From Polycyclovorans algicola TG408 (GTDB lineage Bacteria; Pseudomonadota; Gammaproteobacteria; Nevskiales; Nevskiaceae): DNA of 64,000 nucleotides. The stretch is taken from assembly GCF_000711245.1 (NCBI RefSeq), contig NZ_JOMH01000001.1, positions 3,032,830 through 3,096,829 on the forward strand, given 5' to 3'. The translations under genes were made by a program, and so were the position numbers. The notes beneath the pieces were generated by a model, which saw only the letters and a program-made list of their open reading frames with translations, did no database searches and had not been told where the DNA came from. Of the stretch, positions 2,431 to 11,593 are shown piece by piece (position 1 is the stretch's first letter; each line of letters starts with the position of its first letter).

Positions 2431-2730
2431 TCAGTAGTAATCGTTCTCGCGCTGGTGTCGCACGGCGAGCACAGTGACGGTGGTGTCGTTGTCGATTTCG
2501 AATAGCGCCACATACCCTGCGCCGCCAAACGAGATGATCAGTTCACGCAAAAAGGGGTTGGTGGGGTCAGCCTTGCGGATGGTGAAGGGCATGTCCTGAA
2601 GCTGCGCATAGCCTTTGGCGATGGCGGCGCTGGCCCGCACAGCGGCCCGAGGATCTTTGGGTGCAAGAAAATCCAGCAGCCGTTCCAAGTCCTCCTGGGC
2701 GGCCTTGCTGATTCTGACGCGATACGTCAC
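2431..2730 (-). CDS. ParE/RelE-type toxin
   Basis: This 99-residue protein has the size and layout of the ParE/RelE toxin fold: MTYRVRISKAAQEDLERLLDFL forms the first strand and helix, then alternating strands run to the C-terminal block TVTVLAVRHQRENDYY. ParE-type proteins poison DNA gyrase and RelE-type proteins cut mRNA on the ribosome. The HQRE/Y ending is found in both, so the target cannot be assigned. Its start overlaps the stop of the upstream antitoxin gene by four bases (ATGA), the usual antitoxin-first arrangement. It lies in an accessory patch between the tmRNA and an IS remnant. Confidence 0.85.
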   Translation of the reverse strand: MTYRVRISKAAQEDLERLLDFLAPKDPRAAVRASAAIAKGYAQLQDMPFTIRKADPTNPFLRELIISFGGAGYVALFEIDNDTTVTVLAVRHQRENDYY

Positions 2731-2996
2731 CCGGCCTTGGCCTTGTGCTTTTCGAGGATGGCGTTCAACGAGGCCATGGATTCCTCAACGGTGAAGTACA
2801 CCCCCGTTCGCTTGGCCTCTTCACGTGAGGCGAGGCCACGGGCGATGAACTCTTTCTGCGCGCGGCGATGATCAATCTGCTGGCGCACCGAGGCTTCGAC
2901 GAAGCTGGACAGGCTTTCGCCTTCAGTGAGTACGCTTTCGGCTGCGCTGCGCAGTTCCGGCGTGACTCGGAGCGGCGGGAGGGTCGCGGATTTCAT
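2727..2996 (-). CDS. Antitoxin, ribbon-helix-helix-like
   Basis: An 89-residue protein encoded directly before the ParE/RelE-type toxin, with a four-base overlap. The N-terminus MKSATLPPLRVTPELRSAAESVL resembles the strand-helix of ribbon-helix-helix antitoxins (LPPLRVTPELR as the DNA-binding strand); a charged helical middle and a lysine-rich tail (EKHKAKAG) would bind the toxin. The start at 2996 is chosen because GGAAGG lies five bases upstream; an in-frame ATG at 3029 would add 11 residues that do not look like the family. Antitoxins of this kind usually repress their own promoter, which should lie in 3000-3100. Family placement is by pattern only. Confidence 0.75.
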   Translation of the reverse strand: MKSATLPPLRVTPELRSAAESVLTEGESLSSFVEASVRQQIDHRRAQKEFIARGLASREEAKRTGVYFTVEESMASLNAILEKHKAKAG

Positions 2997-3143
2997 GGGG
3001 CCTTCCATTGTGTTGCAGATGCGATGCACATGGTTTTGCCTGCTGACGATCGCGTCAACCGTTTGAGGGCCGATCGCCTGTGATGGTCAACTTTCGGCGC
3101 GCCGCAAAAGCTGCCATTTTCGTGCCTGGCCCTCGCTCTGATG

Positions 3144-3977: not shown

Positions 3978-5378
3978 TCAATGCACGCCGGCAATACTGT
4001 CGGGTGATTGCAGCATCAGCGCGGCCATGGCCTCCAGCGCGTGACCACAGTCCTGCGTGCTCATCGGGCCGCCAAGGCAGAAGCGCACGGCCTCGGGCAG
4101 CACGCCGCTGACCACGAACGCATCACTGGCGACCACCCCGACACCGATGCTGCGCAACTGCATTGCGAACAGGTGGCGGTTCCACCCCGGCGGCAGTTCC
4201 AGCCACAGGTGAAATGCATCGGCATGGGTGCGGACTTGCGCGGCCGGCAGCCATTGCCGCACGAGCGCCTGTCGCCGGCGCGACTCGGCACGCAGCGCGC
4301 GCAGCATGGCGTGCGCGGTGCCGTCGTCGATCCACTGCGTGGCCAACGCAACCGTCATCGGCGGCGCCATGATGGTGGTGGCGCGAAACACGGCCGACAG
4401 CCGCTGCACGGCGGAGGTGTCCGGCGCAACCAGATAGGCCATCCGCAGACCGGCGCCGACATGCTTGGCCATGCCGGTGAGGTAGTAGGTCAGGCTCGGC
4501 GCAAGTGTCGCAATTGGGGCGACCTTGTCGCTTGGCAGCAGGCCGTAGGCGTCGTCCTCGATCACCGGAATGCCGTACTGCAAAGCGATGCGCGCCAGTT
4601 CGCTGCGACGCGTCAGCGGCACGGTCAGCGTGGTCGGGTTCTGCAGCGTGGGGTTGAGGTACAGCGCCTTGGGCCGGTGCACGCGACAGGCGGTTTCAAA
4701 TGCGTCGGGACGGATGCCGTCAGCGTCCATTGCCAACCCCTGCAGCTTGACGCCCAACTGGGTGGCGATGGCCTTGACGCCGGGATAGGTGATCGCCTCG
4801 CAGCACAACACCTCGCCCGGCCGCACCAGCAAGCTGAACACCGCCACCAATGCGCTTTGAATACCTGGGCAGACCAGCACCCGCTCGGCCGCGACCTCCG
4901 GCAACAGCGGCGCCAGCCAACGCGCACCGGCCTCGCGCGCCTGCGCGTCACCACCAAAGGGCTGATAGCGCAGCAGCACGGTCAGATCGTGCCGCGCCAT
5001 GACCTGCTCGTGACCACGTCGCATGCGCGCCATCAGCACCGGGTCGTCGGGCTCAGGTGGCAGGTTCATCGTCATCTCGACCAACCCCAGGCTGCGGACG
5101 CTGCGGGCCGGGCCCGACGCCGCCTGGGCGCGCACGAAACTGCCGCGGCCGGGATGACTGTCGATCAGCCCGCGCGCCTGCGCCTCGGCATAGCCGCGCG
5201 CCACCGTGGTGTAGTTGAGATGCAGCGCGGTGGCGACCGCGCGTAGCGGCGGCAGTCGGTCGCGCGCTTGCAGCACGCCATTGCGGATGTCATCGGCGAT
5301 GGCCTCGGCCAACGCCAGGTACGCAGGTTGACCGGTACCGATCAAACGCTGCTGCCAACGTCGAGCGCTGTCGGGCAT
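3978..5378 (-). CDS. MocR-type regulator (GntR wHTH + aminotransferase-like domain)
   Basis: A 466-residue two-domain regulator. Residues ~15-82 form a GntR winged helix ([49 protein letters not shown]); residues ~110-460 form a fold-type I aminotransferase domain with the PLP-site aspartate in VIEDDAYG and the likely Schiff-base lysine at ~305 ([16 protein letters not shown]). MocR proteins bind PLP or its amino-acid adduct and usually activate a divergent gene. The start at 5378 is supported by GGGAGG six bases upstream; ATG 5405 is an alternative. It is transcribed away from the Nit1C operon across a 290-bp gap that holds two direct repeats, so control of that operon is the likely job (inference). 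Confidence 0.9.
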
Positions 5379-5399
5379 GGCGGGCCTCCCGGCCGATGA

Positions 5400-5430
5400 A
5401 TGCAATCAATACGGCGTCCATGCAATCAAT
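5400..5430. promoter_or_regulatory. Direct repeats, candidate MocR operator
   Basis: ATGCAATCAAT occurs twice, at 5400-5410 and 5420-5430, with a period of exactly 20 bp (about two helical turns). Characterised MocR regulators often bind pairs of direct repeats on one DNA face in divergent promoters. The site lies 22 bp upstream of the mocR start and about 240 bp upstream of the first Nit1C gene. The rest of 5431-5668 shows no recognisable sigma-54 or strong sigma-70 promoter. Confidence 0.55.
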
Positions 5431-5668
5431 GGGCCAACCATTCCAGGGCAGATCGCATCAACTCGGTGCAAGGACCGTCCAGTCGTTGATGTCCTGCCCG
5501 CAGTGCCAACCATGGCTGACCCGTCTTTGCCGCGCCGCGCAAACAAAAAACTCAAATCAGCCAATGGCTTCGACAACTGATCGGAGCTTGATCGGCCGCC
5601 GACACGACCCGGCGGCACATCGGTTGCGTGGGTCCCGGGGCAGCCTCATTAACCCTCAGGAGCACGCC

Positions 5669-6151
5669 ATGCCCGCAGTCAGCACGACCCCCACCAAGAA
5701 AGGTGATTTCTTCGTCGATTACGAAGAAAAGGTGTTTGAAGACGTCAAAGCCAAACCGGGCGAGAAGGCCCTGGTCACCTTCCACACCGTCGCCTTCGAA
5801 GGCTCGATTGGCCTCGTCAACATCCTTCAGGCCAAGCGGTTGATGCGCAAGGGTTTCGAAACTTCGATTTTGCTCTATGGGCCGGGCGTGACCCTGGGTA
5901 TTCAGCGCGGCTTTCCGACCATCGGCGATGAAGCCTTTCCGGGCGCCCAGAACTTCACCAAACAGCTGGAAGCCTTCATGGGCGAAGGCGGCAAGGTCTA
6001 TTGCTGCCGCTTCGCGCTGCAGATGCTCTACGGCCACGGCGAGCATTCGCTGGTGCCCGGCATCGTGCCGATCAACCCGCTGGACGTCCTCGACCTGATT
6101 CTGATTCACCGCAACGACGACGCCTTCATGATCCACACCTGGACGGTGTGA
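5669..6151 (+). CDS. MSMEG_0572/Sll0783 family nitrogen-starvation response protein
   Basis: A 160-residue soluble protein and the first gene of the Nit1C operon. It begins [26 protein letters not shown] and contains [46 protein letters not shown] and [18 protein letters not shown], blocks typical of the MSMEG_0572/Sll0783 family, which is found almost only in Nit1C clusters. The fold recalls DsrE-like small proteins, but the activity is not known. The ATG at 5669 has a CAGGAG ribosome site six bases upstream; the frame is open to 5396 but the extra residues are not conserved-looking. The nitrilase gene follows after 10 bp. Confidence 0.9.
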
Positions 6152-6161
6152 GGCGCCGGCC

Positions 6162-7250
6162 ATGAGCACGCCCCGCCGCATCCGTGCCGCCGCCGTCCAG
6201 CTCAATCCGGTGCTGGACTCGGCGGACGGCACCGCCGACAAGGTGCTGCTGGCCCTCGCCGACGGCGCGGCGCAGGGCGTGCAGCTCATGGTGTTTCCCG
6301 AAACCGTGGTGCCCTACTACCCCTACTTTTCCTTCGTCACCCCGGCGGTGACGATGGGCCCGGCGCACCTGCGACTGTACGAGCACGCGCCCACGGTGCC
6401 CGGGCCACTGAGCGACGCCATCTCCGCCGCCGCCCGTCAGCACGCGATGGTGGTGGTGCTCGGCGTCAACGAGCGTGATCACGGCACGCTCTACAACACG
6501 CAGCTCATCTTCGACGCCGACGGCCGGCTGGCATTGAAGCGCCGCAAGATCACGCCGACCTATCACGAGCGCATGGTCTGGGGCATGGGCGACGGCTCGG
6601 GGCTGAAGACGGTGGATACCGCCGTCGGCCGGCTTGGTGCGCTGGCCTGCTGGGAGCACTACAACCCGCTGGCGCGCTACGCGCTGATGGCGCAGCACGA
6701 AGAGATTCACTGCAGCCAATTCCCCGGCTCGCTGGTCGGGCCGATCTTTGCCGAACAGATGGAAGTGACGATGCGCCACCACGCGCTGGAGGCCGGCGCC
6801 TTCGTCGTCAATGCCACCGCATGGCTGACCGACGCGCAGAAGCAACAACTCGCGCCGACACCGGAGCTGCTCAAGGCCTTCAGCGGCGGTTGCTACTCGG
6901 CGGTGATCTCGCCCGAGGGCAAGCACCTGGCCGAGCCGCTGCGCGAAGGCGAAGGGCTGGTGATTGCCGAGCTCGACTTCGCGCTGATCACCAAACGGAA
7001 ACGGATGATGGATTCGGTGGGCCACTACGCGCGGCCGGACCTGCTGCGCCTGCACCTCGACACGCAAGCCCACACGCCGCTGCAACAAGACGCGCCCGCA
7101 GCGACTGCCGCGCCCGTGCACCGCGCCGACCCGCGTGACGTCGAAGACCTGCAGCAGGTCACGCGGCTGCTGCAGCAACCCGCGCCCGCCAGCGGCCCGC
7201 AGGGTGACTACCTCGCCGCACTGGCGCAGATGATGGCGCGCGCCTCATGA
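6162..7250 (+). CDS. Nit1C nitrilase (Nit6803 type)
   Basis: A 362-residue nitrilase-superfamily enzyme with the complete Glu-Lys-Cys triad: E47 in [11 protein letters not shown]129 in [13 protein letters not shown] and C163 in LACWEHYNP. Nitrilases hydrolyse R-CN to the acid and ammonia through a cysteine thioimidate. The closest known group is the Nit1C nitrilases (cyanobacterial Nit6803 type), which always occur with the neighbouring genes seen here. In Pseudomonas this cluster has been linked to growth on cyanide as nitrogen source. Its last four bases (ATGA) overlap the radical SAM gene, so translation is coupled. The C-terminal 30 residues are a divergent tail rich in Gln, Leu and Ala. 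Confidence 0.95.
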
Positions 7251-8431
7251 GCACGCTCACCACCCGCACGTTGTCGCTGCAGGATCTGCGCCGCCCACAA
7301 GCTGCGATGCAGGCGATGCCGGTTGCCGAGCTGATCAGTGCGCTGCAGGCCAGCGGCCTGCGCCTGGAGTCGGCAGATACCGGCATCACCGCCCGTAAAG
7401 GCGGCGCCGGGCCGACCGATCACAAGGCCGTCAGCGTCGATGGCCGCACCATCATGGTGCCGGTGCTGCACGAAAGCGCGCGGCGCTCGCCGTTCTTTGC
7501 GCGCCGCCCCGACGCCGACGGCCACAGCCAGTTGGAACGCGACGGCATTCCGGTGGCGCGCATCGCCTTTCCGAAGCAACCGCGCTTCTACGCCCAGCAG
7601 ACCTTTGACGGCGTGCCCTACTGGAAGATCGCCCAGCTGCACGGTCGCGACGTGCTCGCCACCACCGTGCTGCAAACCTGCATCCGCTACGGTCGGCGCA
7701 GCACCGCCTGCCAGTTCTGCGCCATCGGCGAGTCGCTGGCCGAAGGCCGCACCATCAACCGCAAGACGCCCGAGCAGCTTGGCGAGGTGGCACGCGCGGC
7801 GGTGCTGCTCGACGGCGTGCGCCACATGGTGATGACCACCGGAACGCCCAACTTCACCGACCGCGGCGCGGCGATCCTTTGCGAGAGCGCCTTCGGCGTG
7901 AAGTCGGCGGTGAACCTGCCGATCCAGGCGCAGTGCGAGCCGCCGGATGATCCGGCGTGGTTCGCGCGGCTGCGCGATGCGGGTGTCGACGCGCTGGGCA
8001 TGCACCTTGAAGCGGTCACGCCCGAGGTGCGCCAGCGCATCATGCCGGGCAAGGCCAGCGTGGGCGTGGACGACTATCTGCGCGCATTTGCCGACGCCGT
8101 GGCGGTGTTCGGTCGCGGCCAGGTCAGCACTTACATCCTGGCCGGGCTGGGCGACAGCGACGAGGCAATTCTGGCCATGTGCGAAACCCTGATCGGCCTC
8201 GGCGTCTACCCGTTTGTGGTGCCGTTCGTGCCGGTTGGCGGCACGCCGCTGGCGCAGCATCGTGGGCCAGACGCGCTGGCCATGCGCAGCCTGCTGGCAC
8301 CGCTGGGGCAGATGCTGGTCACGGCCGGACTCACCGCCACCGACATCAAGGCCGGCTGCGGCAAGTGCGGTGCCTGCTCGTCACTGTCCAGCTTCGAGCA
8401 GGCCGCACGGGAGGTGACCCATGTCGTTTGA
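7247..8431 (+). CDS. MSMEG_0568 family radical SAM protein
   Basis: A 394-residue protein whose cluster motif is unusual: C145-x9-C155-x2-C158 ([18 protein letters not shown]) instead of the classical Cx3Cx2C. The barrel follows, with [36 protein letters not shown] and [16 protein letters not shown] resembling biotin-synthase/lipoate-synthase-like strands. A second cysteine group near the C-terminus ([11 protein letters not shown]) could bind another iron-sulfur cluster. It is third in the Nit1C operon; its start overlaps the nitrilase stop by four bases and its end overlaps the GNAT gene by eleven. The reaction has not been established; radical modification of a nitrile or amine product is a guess. 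Confidence 0.92.
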
Positions 8432-8999
8432 TGCCGTGCTCAGCGACTGGCTGCCCGCCGCCAACGGCCTGGCCACAGCCGACTCACCGCCGGGTGATTA
8501 CTGGATCAAACCCGCCACCGAAGCCTGGGAACTTGCCGGTGCACGCGGCCTGCGCCGCGCCGTGTTCTGCGTCGAGCAGGGCCTGTTCGAGGGCGATGAC
8601 CGCGACCCTGTCGATGCCCACTGCACGGTGCTGGTGGCGCTGGCCTGCGTCTTCGGCATGCCGGATCGCGTGGTCGGCACGGTACGCATTCACCGCCTTT
8701 CGGGTCTTCACTGGCAAGGCTCGCGACTGGCGGTGGCCCGTGACTGCCGGCGCCTCGCCGCACTCGGCACCGGGCTGATTCAACTCGCGGGTTGCACCGC
8801 GTCGGCGAGGGGCGCAGCGCGCTTCACCGCGCAAGTGCAGTTGCGCCACCGCCACCTGTTCGAGCGCCTGCACTGGCAGCCACAGGCGGCGATCACCGTG
8901 CAGGGCGCGCCGCACCTGCGCATGCAGGCCGACCTCGCTCACTACCCGGCGCGGCTTGCGCAGCCGCGCGTGCTGTCGGCAACGGCGCGCGCCGCGTGA
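8421..8999 (+). CDS. MSMEG_0567/Sll0786 family N-acetyltransferase
   Basis: A 192-residue GNAT-type protein. IKPATEAWELAGARGLRRAVFCVEQGLFEGDDRDPVDAHC matches the N-terminal strand-helix of autoinducer-synthase-like acetyltransferases, and VVGTVRIHR is the central strand. RLAVARDCRRLAALGTGLIQLAGC occupies the acyl-CoA-binding region, followed by a helix rich in Ala and Arg. In actinobacteria (MSMEG_0567) this domain is fused to the AIR-synthase-like domain; here, as in cyanobacteria, they are separate genes whose coding regions overlap by four bases. The substrate is unknown. It is fourth in the Nit1C operon and overlaps the radical SAM gene by 11 bp. Confidence 0.88.
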   Translation: MSFDAVLSDWLPAANGLATADSPPGDYWIKPATEAWELAGARGLRRAVFCVEQGLFEGDDRDPVDAHCTVLVALACVFGMPDRVVGTVRIHRLSGLHWQGSRLAVARDCRRLAALGTGLIQLAGCTASARGAARFTAQVQLRHRHLFERLHWQPQAAITVQGAPHLRMQADLAHYPARLAQPRVLSATARAA

Positions 9000-9994
9000 T
9001 TGACCCCGCCGTCATCGCCGAGCAGTTGCAGGGCACGCGCGGGCTGGCGCACAAGCACGACATCGCCGCAGTCATCGCGCAACTGGGGCTCGATGCTTCG
9101 GCACGGGCGCCGGTGCCCGTGGGCGATGACTGTGCGGCCATTGCCGACGGTGACGGCTGGCTGCTGCTCGCCATCGAAGGCTTCATGAACGAATTCGTTG
9201 CCGCCGAGCCCTACTTCGCCGGCTGGTGCGGCGTGATGGTCAACGTCAGCGACATCTACGCCATGGGCGGCCGGCCGATCGCGGTGGTCGACGCGCTGTG
9301 GGGCGCCAGTGCGACATCCGCTGACACCGTGCTGGCCGGCCTGGCCGCGGCCGCAAAGTGCTACGGCGTGCCGGTGGTCGGCGGTCACAGCAACTTGCGC
9401 GCGGGTCGCGACCAGTTGGCGGTGGCGATTCTCGGCCGCGCCACCCGCCTGCTCACCAGCTTCGATGCCCAGCCCGGCCAGGTGCTGATCGCCGCGATTG
9501 ATCTGCGTGGTGGCTACCGACCGCATTTTTCCAACTGGGATGCCGCCTCGACCGCACCCGGTATCCGCTTGCGCGGCGACCTTGAACTGCTGCCCGCCAT
9601 CGCCGAAGACGGCCTCAGTGCCGCTGGCAAGGACATCTCGCAAGCCGGCATTCTCGGCACCTTGCTGATGCTGCTGGAGTGCTCCGGCGTCGGCGCCACA
9701 GTGAACCTCGACGCCATTCCCCGTCCGCCCGATGTGGACCCGCAGCGCTGGTGGCTGCACACCTTTCCCAGCTTTGGCTACTGGTTGTCGGTGGCCCCTG
9801 GCGCGGTGCCAGCGGTACTCGAACGCTTTTCGGCACGCGGCATCACGGCGGCGATGGTGGGCGTCTGCGAGCCGCATCAACAGCTGCACCTGCGTGCCGG
9901 GGGCCGCAGCGCGCTCGCCTGGGACGGCACCCGGCAGACGCTGATGGGCTGCGGCCGAGCGCCCGCGTCACAGCCCGAGACCGCCCATGCCTGA
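8996..9994 (+). CDS. Sll0787 family AIR synthase-like protein
   Basis: A 332-residue PurM/SelD-fold protein. The conserved parts are PVGDDCAAIADGDGWLLLAIEGF (nucleotide- and metal-binding aspartates), WCGVMVNVSDIYAMGGRPIAVVDAL and VPVVGGHSNLRAG, then the C-terminal EDGLSAAGKDISQAGILGTLLMLLE. Relatives (AIR synthase, selenophosphate synthetase, thiamine-phosphate kinase) transfer or activate phosphate, so an ATP-dependent step in the Nit1C pathway is likely; the substrate is not known. The start is taken as GTG at 8996, overlapping the GNAT stop (GTGA), because the protein then opens IDPAVIAEQLQGTRGLAHKHDI as in the family. Longer in-frame starts lie inside the GNAT gene. Confidence 0.88.
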   Translation: MIDPAVIAEQLQGTRGLAHKHDIAAVIAQLGLDASARAPVPVGDDCAAIADGDGWLLLAIEGFMNEFVAAEPYFAGWCGVMVNVSDIYAMGGRPIAVVDALWGASATSADTVLAGLAAAAKCYGVPVVGGHSNLRAGRDQLAVAILGRATRLLTSFDAQPGQVLIAAIDLRGGYRPHFSNWDAASTAPGIRLRGDLELLPAIAEDGLSAAGKDISQAGILGTLLMLLECSGVGATVNLDAIPRPPDVDPQRWWLHTFPSFGYWLSVAPGAVPAVLERFSARGITAAMVGVCEPHQQLHLRAGGRSALAWDGTRQTLMGCGRAPASQPETAHA

Positions 9995-10280
9995 ACTACA
10001 TTTTTCGCTGCGCTGGCCCGACGGCAGCTTCAGTCGCTGCTACTCGCCCTCGTCGACGCTGCGCCAGCATTTCTCCGCTGGTGAGGTGTATCCGCTGTCC
10101 GAGTTTGTCACCCGCTGCCGCGAGGCCTTTCACCTCGCCAGCGAACGGGTGCGCGCCCGCTATGGCTTCGCCTGCAGCAGTGCGGTGGCGCAGTTGCAGG
10201 AGATCGAAACCACCGCCGCGCGTTTTGCCGATCTGCCCGGCGCCCACGTCACCGTCATCAACTTCGAGCCGCCCGCATGA
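9987..10280 (+). CDS. MSMEG_0570 family nitrogen-starvation response protein
   Basis: A 97-residue protein beginning MPELHFSLRWPDGSFSRCYSPSS and containing FSAGEVYPLSEFVTRCREAFHLASERVRARYGFACSSA. The protein, including the MPE...W.DG opening, matches the MSMEG_0570/Sll0788-like family seen only in Nit1C clusters. It has no signal peptide or membrane segment. Its start overlaps the AIR-synthase-like gene by eight bases and its stop overlaps the oxidoreductase by four, so it is translationally coupled on both sides. Its small size and obligate association suggest an accessory or regulatory subunit, but this is inference. Confidence 0.85.
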   Translation: MPELHFSLRWPDGSFSRCYSPSSTLRQHFSAGEVYPLSEFVTRCREAFHLASERVRARYGFACSSAVAQLQEIETTAARFADLPGAHVTVINFEPPA

Positions 10281-11593
10281 CCGCCGCCGTTCCCGAGTCA
10301 CAAACATCGCACTACCCCGCGCTGGTGATCGGCGGCGGCCAGGCCGGTCTGTCGGCCAGTCACTACCTAACGCGGCGCGAGATTCCGCATCTGGTCTTCG
10401 AAAAGCACGGGCTCGCCCACGAGTGGCGCAACCGCCGCTGGGACAGCTTCTGCCTGGTCACGCCCAACTGGCAGTGCCAACTGCCCGATTACCCCTATCG
10501 CGGGCCGGACCCCAAGGGCTTCATGCTGAAGGACGAGATCGTCCGCTATGTCGAGGGCTTTGCCGCCTCGTTCAAGCCGCCGCTGCGCGAGGGCGTCACC
10601 GTGACCCGACTCGCGCGTCGCGGGCACGGCCCCTACGTGCTCGACACCAGCGCCGGCCGCTTTACCGCCGATCAGGTGATTGTCGCGGTCGGCGGCTATC
10701 ACCGGCCCATCGTGCCGCGCATGGCCGAGCGCCTGCCGCCGGGGCTGATGCAGTTGCACGCGCCGGACTACCGCAACCCCGACGCGCTGCCACCCGGCGC
10801 CGTGCTGGTCGTGGGCACCGGCCAGTCGGGCTGTCAGATCGCCGAAGACCTGCATCTGGCCGGTCGCCGCGTCCACCTCTGCGTCGGCGGTGCGCCGCGC
10901 GCGCCTCGGCAGTACCGCGGCAAGGACGCGGTCGAATGGCTGGATGCGATGGGCTACTACGACATCACCCTGGATGAGCACCCCAAGCGCGACACGGTGC
11001 GCCACAAGGCCAATCACTACCTCACCGGCCGCGACGGCGGGCGCGAAATCGACCTGCGGCGCTTTGCCGCCGAAGGCATGCGCTTGCACGGCCGGCTGAC
11101 CGACATCGAGGCAAGCACGGGCGGCCTGCACCTGCACTTCGGCGACGACCTGCGACGCAACCTTGACCACGCCGATGCGGTGGCCGAAAGCATCAAGGCC
11201 ACCATCGACCAGTACATCGAGCGCGAAGGCATCAACGCGCCGCTTGACCCGCCCTATCACCCCTGCTGGCAGCCCGAGGCCAACGACCCGCCGCTGGACC
11301 TGAAAGCCGCCGACATCGGCAGTGTGATCTGGTGCATCGGCTATCGCGCGGACTTTTCGTGGATCGACGTGCCGGTGTTTGACGGCCTCGGCTACCCGGC
11401 CCACACGCGCGGCATCACCCCCGCACCCGGCCTGTATTTTCTCGGCCTGCCGTGGCTCTACACCTGGGGCTCGGGGCGCTTCTCGGGCGTCGCCCGCGAT
11501 GCCGCGCATGTGGTGGCGCACCTCGACGCCCACCGGCAAACCCGTGGCCTTGCCGCCGCAAGGCCGCTCAATGAACTGGCGCTTGGCGCCTGA
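10277..11593 (+). CDS. MSMEG_0569 family flavin-dependent oxidoreductase
   Basis: A 438-residue class B flavoprotein monooxygenase-like enzyme and the last gene of the Nit1C operon. The FAD-binding GxGxxG is at residues ~16-21 ([15 protein letters not shown]), followed by [21 protein letters not shown], a variant of the flavin-monooxygenase fingerprint. A second dinucleotide motif for NAD(P)H lies near residue 180 ([18 protein letters not shown]). The C-terminal [25 protein letters not shown] closes the FAD site. Relatives oxygenate nucleophilic N or S atoms. Within Nit1C it is thought to oxidise a nitrogen compound before or after nitrile hydrolysis; the substrate is unproven. It begins four bases inside the previous gene. 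Confidence 0.92.

Follow-up and report, generated by a model that had tools for sequence, protein, structure and literature searches.

Among the MocR operators described so far are direct repeats separated by two or three turns of the helix, and those of GabR, TauR, PdxR and EnuR are built from short repeated half sites of this kind (PMC5320631). EnuR is a repressor (PMC8739950) and the MocR protein of the cio/nit4 cluster in P. pseudoalcaligenes acts negatively (PMC8567248), while TauR (PMC5320631) and GabR of B. subtilis activate. For MpaR of P. aeruginosa, cyanide-dependent expression that requires the PLP lysine has been reported (PMC10790758). The cio/nit4 MocR and MpaR are MocR-type proteins tied to nitriles or cyanide, as we propose for the regulator studied here, but their target genes differ. 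MpaR also differs in its site, an ATCTGAT palindrome through which it drives expression; this lies 61-62 bp ahead of start sites for which -10/-35 boxes are predicted (PMC10790758).

The closest described gene cluster is nit1C of Pseudomonas pseudoalcaligenes / oleovorans CECT 5344, which has the same Nit1C genes and a divergent regulator gene in the same place. Its regulator NitA is a Fis-family sigma-54 regulator, and the control is of the sigma-54-dependent type, as is the promoter reported below (PMC11049912). When Nit1C was described in 2005, conserved transcription factor sites upstream could not be identified (Podar et al.; PMC1199592). Our literature search covered open-access papers, and among the matches listed we found no description of a MocR protein at a sigma-54 promoter; nor do the excerpts of PMC5333837, PMC7652997 and PMC9249168 describe this arrangement. 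The main text of PMC5320631 mentions neither nitrilase nor nitrile, and nitrilase words are likewise missing from the main text of two transcriptome papers (PMC5491218, PMC5748707).

The Nit1C locus and its repeat pair

The window, i.e., the whole stretch of 64,000 nucleotides that was analysed, contains a complete Nit1C operon with all seven conserved genes and a divergent MocR-type gene.

3978-5378, minus strand: MocR-type regulator gene (466 aa; wHTH plus aminotransferase-like domain)
5400-5410, minus strand: candidate operator copy for MocR, next to the MocR gene (minus-strand sequence ATTGATTGCAT; 19.3 bits)
5420-5430, minus strand: second candidate operator copy for MocR, next to the MocR gene (minus-strand sequence ATTGATTGCAT; 20 bp from the first, same basis)
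5669-6151, plus strand: MSMEG_0572/Sll0783 family gene ("0572"), first of the Nit1C operon (TIGR04044, 270 bits, above cut-off)
6162-11593, plus strand: remaining Nit1C genes (Nit6803 nitrilase, radical SAM, GNAT, AIR synthase-like, MSMEG_0570, MSMEG_0569 oxidoreductase)

The remaining Nit1C genes match the NCBIfam models TIGR04048, 04043, 04045, 04049, 04042 and 04046, every one above cut-off. The regulator belongs to the MocR/GabR subfamily, with a wHTH match of residues 12-89 to a predicted regulator chain and aminotransferase matches at 104-455. Its PLP-binding lysine and aspartate (the latter in ...IPVIEDDAY) align with those of an aminotransferase, and the lysine is kept in all rows of a MocR alignment from a chosen subset of loci. 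EhuR is the best NCBIfam model at 420 bits, with other MocR models scoring lower, and as the EhuR cut-off is 480 the protein does not qualify as an EhuR/EnuR orthologue. The MocR and 0572 proteins are closer to those of Nevskia/Solimonas-like genomes (L004, L005; 62% and 92-94%) than to those of the same-genus genomes G001 (L029) and G002 (L020; 51-53% and 78-79%), which suggests horizontal exchange of the MocR-0572 block (3978-6151). Elsewhere in the window, at 2431-3029 on the minus strand, two short overlapping genes resemble a ParE/RelE-type toxin and antitoxin as judged by eye from the reading frames.

The first-pass annotation had singled out two 11-bp direct repeats in the intergenic gap, and these are indeed present as ATGCAATCAAT at 5400-5410 and 5420-5430, 20 bp apart start to start. 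That they are intergenic depends on the start of MocR. The ATG at 5378 is preceded by GGGAGG, and several homologues align from the first residue of its product, while a listed alternative, TTG at 5405, would overlap the first copy. Taking ATG 5378, the gap between MocR and 0572 is 290 bp, and the repeats lie within it, on the upstream side of the MocR start at a distance of 22-52 bp; the start of 0572 is about 240-270 bp away. The same annotation saw no other repeat of such quality in the gap. The pair is the longest exact direct repeat in 5340-5700 and is followed by repeats of 10, 9 and 8 bp; two degenerate copies of the motif at 5576 and 5587 had been overlooked. Beyond 5400 and 5420, ATGCAATCAAT has no exact copy in the 3.65-Mb genome.

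Taken alone, the repeat is suggestive. When the 290-bp gap was shuffled 4000 times with its dinucleotides preserved, 1.45% of the resulting sequences contained an 11-bp direct repeat with non-overlapping copies at any distance, and 0.2% contained one within 35 bp. For real sequence, the window was divided into 440 tiles of 290 bp that overlap by half. Of these, 24 have such a repeat at any distance and 6 within 35 bp, two of the latter containing the 5400/5420 repeat itself. As the bare repeat is of modest rarity, the case for operators is made by conservation.

A motif tied to MocR across clades

Loci for comparison were collected by searching for the 0572 family. Among 100 related genomes, the own genome included, MocR protein matches were found in 35 (E 1e-60) and the 0572 family in 34, all of them among the 35; the extra genome, G081, has a distant MocR. 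The 0572 search of the class covered 369 genomes, with 8 matched and 4 over cut-off (own genome included). In the family of a Cupriavidus genome 64 of 299 genomes matched, and in the order of a Bradyrhizobium genome 34 of 297, with 30 over cut-off. Regions were excluded if the sequence upstream was shorter than 250 bp, if the start of 0572 was incomplete, or if the last 200 bp were identical to those of another region. A divergent MocR-type gene lies within 700 bp in 127 of the 142 non-redundant Nit1C upstream regions obtained. The motif work used 98 of these 127 adjacent loci, retained by a 12-mer similarity filter; because related Burkholderiaceae are still in this set, the counts given below do not represent independent events. 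Clade labels follow either the search set from which the locus was obtained or the title of its record.

De novo motif finding on the filtered gaps used expectation maximization (EM) with one site per sequence. Three clades, independently of one another, yielded one common element, ATTGATYGCAT, whose form in the alpha set is ATTGACTG-AT. From the 21 gaps of the Nevskiales set came ATTGATcGcAT with a log-likelihood of 163 compared to 45 for shuffled sequences, the Burkholderiales set (46 gaps) gave ATTGATCGCAT (376 vs 61), and the alpha set (28 gaps) gave ATTGAcTG.ATAtT (258 vs 48). The log-likelihoods are thus 3.6 to 6 times the shuffled-set values, and only these are telling, since shuffled sets also assign sites nearly everywhere (e.g., 20.8 of 21) and the site counts are uninformative. 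In the Nevskiales set, the sigma-54 element described below scores nearly as high (161.7). EM without the site limit produced AT-rich smears only, and the one-site-per-sequence version was used instead.

The 19.3 bits listed for the window copies come from a matrix trained on sequences that it then scored, and a separate held-out test was made with a matrix built from the Burkholderiales set only. This matrix ranks the pair first and second in the 64 kb at 19.4 bits, with the third match at 13.2. On the Nevskiales set it finds 65 matches in 20 of 21 gaps, compared to Markov means of 4.8 matches in 4.05 gaps. The motif ATTGATYGCAT occurs five times in the own genome; two are the window pair, and at least two of the other three lie inside long reading frames. 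The exact pattern is present in 76 of the 127 adjacent regions, a count that understates the sites, above all in the alpha set.

The interpretation given in the first-pass annotation is partly supported. The de novo motif in three clades, the held-out prediction and the occurrence of copies next to MocR as well as next to Nit1C in 80 of 95 loci argue for MocR operators; that this pair is the whole operator is not supported. The exact 20-bp spacing, proposed as the operator geometry, occurs in 1 of 98 non-redundant loci, which is the window itself, although it falls in a two-turn class: a same-strand pair 19-24 bp apart on the MocR side is found in 20 of the 98. Poor conservation in close relatives that keep both genes had been named as the outcome that would speak against operators. 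In G001 (L029) and G002 (L020) the motif is kept and the 20-bp pair is in neither; each has one full-strength copy near MocR, in mutually opposite orientation, and L020 has one weaker copy in addition. Another locus with adjacent MocR (L033) has no scoring copy, but carries CTTGTATGGAT near the usual place, which we read as a drifted site. The repeated motif is conserved beside orthologous regulator genes, and from this comparison the repeats are well supported as operators of the MocR-type regulator. They share ATTG with the EnuR consensus ATTGTnnnnnnACAAT (PMC8739950).

Loci in which MocR has been displaced or is missing bear on the tie between motif and regulator. Of the 15 regions without an adjacent divergent MocR, 3 have the gene at a greater distance; in the other 12 it is missing, differently placed, or beyond the sequence that was fetched. 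The genomes behind these 12 have a MocR match somewhere in 11 cases, and none was found in G168 (genome-wide, E 1e-30). Copies at the locked positions described below are kept in 13 of the 15, several with MocR 2-8 kb away. The two exceptions are L129 from G168, which has the promoter, no motif and no MocR, and L190, which has motif copies but lacks a good sigma-54 element. In two Acinetobacter plasmids of NitA-like layout, a sigma-54 interacting regulator takes the place of MocR, and there the promoter is present while the locked positions are without a copy; weak stray matches in one of these regions (L263) are at other positions. Together, four Nit1C regions without adjacent MocR show no copy at the fixed promoter positions (G168, judged genome-wide, plus a Rhodococcus plasmid and the two Acinetobacter plasmids, each judged from the local sequence), a small control group in which the two Acinetobacter plasmids are near-identical. 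The motif variant also changes with the MocR clade, a relation confounded with phylogeny. Acetobacter, Komagataeibacter and Alloyangia loci, with MocR at 36-46% identity, have ATTGTATG variants, and none of them shows a sigma-54 element that convinces by eye; in L265 a score of 18 is reached at 157 bp by a sequence that lacks TTGC. A Rhizobium daejeonense locus follows the alpha pattern. The motif and its tie to MocR are shown by this comparison.

Two further features of gene order were observed. On the Acetobacter and Komagataeibacter plasmids (L264, L265) the MocR gene is co-oriented with Nit1C. In alphaproteobacteria a DUF983 gene adjoins MocR genes of this group, annotated in L267 and L268 and with similar frames seen by eye in L088, L090 and L093.

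Sigma-54 promoter, operator positions and NtrC-like sites

The gap also holds promoter and activator elements on the Nit1C side.

5454-5470, plus strand: NtrC-like palindrome (CGCATCAACTCGGTGCA; centred 151 bp ahead of the sigma-54 element; 16.5 of 20)
5576-5586, plus strand: weak candidate operator copy for MocR on the promoter side (ACTGATCGGAG; 37 bp ahead of the sigma-54 element; 9.9 bits; held-out rank 19)
5587-5597, plus strand: weak candidate operator copy for MocR on the promoter side (CTTGATCGGCC; 26 bp ahead of the sigma-54 element; 7.2 bits; held-out rank 78)
5613-5628, plus strand: predicted sigma-54 (-24/-12) promoter of the Nit1C operon (CGGCACATCGGTTGCG; 20 of 22 by consensus score)

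The window element has the GG-N10-GC and TGGCAC-N5-TTGC patterns and departs from the scored consensus only in lacking its initial T, the G that follows TGGCAC and the final A. A consensus scan of 5300-5720 found no sigma-70 promoter. An element scoring at least 18 of 22 is present in 95 of the 98 gaps compared to 5.7% of Markov sequences, and one scoring at least 20 in 84 compared to 0.5%; a threshold of 15 does not discriminate (58% of shuffled sequences reach it), whereas 18 does. Three alpha loci (L186, L189, L191) lack the element despite having MocR and motif copies. rpoN is present in the own genome (two matches) and in 13 of 14 genomes searched; the remaining one, G450, gave no rpoN match, and its locus L065 has a TGGCAC-type element with an altered -12 part. 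The second rpoN paralogue of the own genome lies beside a sigma-54 activator domain (G000:C1:1380335-1382312).

Positions relative to the sigma-54 element were counted in 95 loci, the three of 98 without a good element being excluded. A promoter-side copy is found in 93, a MocR-side copy in 81 and both in 80. In beta- and gammaproteobacterial loci, the operon-strand copies start 27 (42 copies), 26 (6), 38 (33) or 37 (20) bp before the element and are few elsewhere, the next commonest position being 5 bp with 7 copies. Alpha copies are mainly at 49-52 (24) and 61-64 bp (19), with some at 26-28 (7) and 38-40 bp (6). In 14 cases, a copy in inverted orientation starts 10-14 bp ahead of the element. 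The window copies at these positions are weak, with ranks 19 and 78, and position is their sole support. Among promoter-side copies on the same strand, the commonest spacing is 11-12 bp (67 pairs), while MocR-side spacings are 20-24 (20 pairs), 9 (17), 13 (7) and 32 bp (6). Copies at several spacings, and copies locked to a sigma-54 promoter with NtrC-like sites, set this locus apart from the known operators of the MocR/GabR family.

With motif and promoter masked, the Burkholderiales set yielded an NtrC-like palindrome de novo (log-likelihood 188 vs 59), and the other two sets did so when a palindrome seed was used (66 vs 26 and 86 vs 17). The best site scores at least 14 in 74 of 98 loci, with alpha sites weaker, and 70 of these 74 sites are centred 110-209 bp before the promoter. 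Because 24% of shuffled regions also reach 14, the single site in the window is weak evidence. The NtrC enhancer pattern GCAC-N7-GTGC is enriched across loci as a class, while the window site is degenerate; an NtrC gene above cut-off is present in the own genome. Comparison across loci likewise establishes the positions of the copies, the sigma-54 element and the NtrC-like sites as a class.

An IHF site of the form WATCAANNNNTTR was rejected as a candidate, as it fits 0 of 57 strict-pattern promoter-side copies and is found nowhere in the 110 bp before the promoter of the 98 loci. Two other sequences recur in gaps of the Nevskiales and Burkholderiales sets (e.g., L010) and are absent from the window. 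TGTCTC precedes the sigma-54 element by 30-55 bp in 13 of the 21 gaps of the Nevskiales set, where it stands directly in front of the promoter-side copy, and an A/T tract like GAAAAATTTTTC is found farther upstream in many gaps of both sets.

Possible modes of Nit1C control

We consider it likely, from the comparison of loci, that the copies are operators of the divergent MocR and that they gate the sigma-54 promoter, whatever the sign. A sigma-54 promoter of nitrogen-starvation type probably switches on this nitrile/cyanide-use cluster. MocR would bind the two strong copies just upstream of its own start, giving autoregulation, and the same protein would bind the copies that start 26-27 and 37-38 bp ahead of the Nit1C promoter, roughly one turn of the helix from each other. 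Sigma-54 requires an ATPase activator. Fis-family sigma-54 regulators carry their own ATPase, while MocR has no such domain; with MocR in the place of NitA, another activator must serve here. NtrC is therefore the likely activator and MocR the likely gate: NtrC, from sites about 110-200 bp upstream, would supply the ATPase step in response to nitrogen starvation, and MocR with PLP and a putative nitrile- or cyanide-related ligand would decide access to the promoter. MocR is most likely a repressor released by this ligand, as the two described relatives EnuR and the cio-cluster MocR repress and some operators abut the -24 element. That cyanide or nitrile acts on PLP as the signal is a guess prompted by MpaR. 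The actual binding, the sign of regulation, the ligand and any loop between the two operator groups are what we infer from the arrangement.

A more specific version, which we put forward tentatively as a possibility short of even chances, is that MocR may be a phase-locked partner of the sigma-54 RNA polymerase, bound one turn apart at about -53/-64 between NtrC and the promoter. A nitrile or cyanide adduct would then decide whether NtrC can fire, and the promoter would respond to nitrogen starvation AND substrate. If true, such gating would be a standard control of Nit1C in many proteobacteria. An upstream site of Nit1C has now been identified with a candidate regulator, a promoter class and positions in many genomes, and the inputs of this widespread cyanide/nitrile cluster are thereby directly testable.

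With the same operators, MocR might instead be a positive co-regulator that acts by contact with the sigma-54 RNA polymerase or by bending the DNA that separates NtrC from the promoter, replacing the IHF of other sigma-54 promoters. This differs from repression in sign only, so that its likelihood, which we regard as rather low, overlaps with that given to gating in general. We keep co-activation or DNA bending as an option because of the strict phasing of the copies to the promoter (26/37 positions) and because GabR, TauR and MpaR activate. The operators also lie between the NtrC-like sites and the promoter, and the IHF consensus is absent from the 110 bp upstream of the promoter, where only about 0.3 occurrences are expected by chance across the loci, which makes the absence a weak point. 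However, the 14 inverted copies abutting the -24 element suggest occlusion, and EnuR and the cio-cluster MocR are repressors.

That the repeats serve mocR autoregulation only, with no part in Nit1C control, is unlikely. The strong copies do lie close to the MocR start and far from that of 0572, but copies are locked to the Nit1C promoter across clades and are retained where MocR has moved away. Very unlikely is a motif of another factor, IHF or a further regulator, with MocR merely adjacent. The TTGAT core of the motif resembles part of the IHF consensus; however, none of the strict-pattern copies fits the full IHF pattern, the motif variant follows the MocR clade (with the confounding noted above), and the few MocR-free regions are without locked copies. 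A chance repeat is hardly credible, since despite the tile frequency given above the held-out matrix places both window copies ahead of every other match in the 64 kb.
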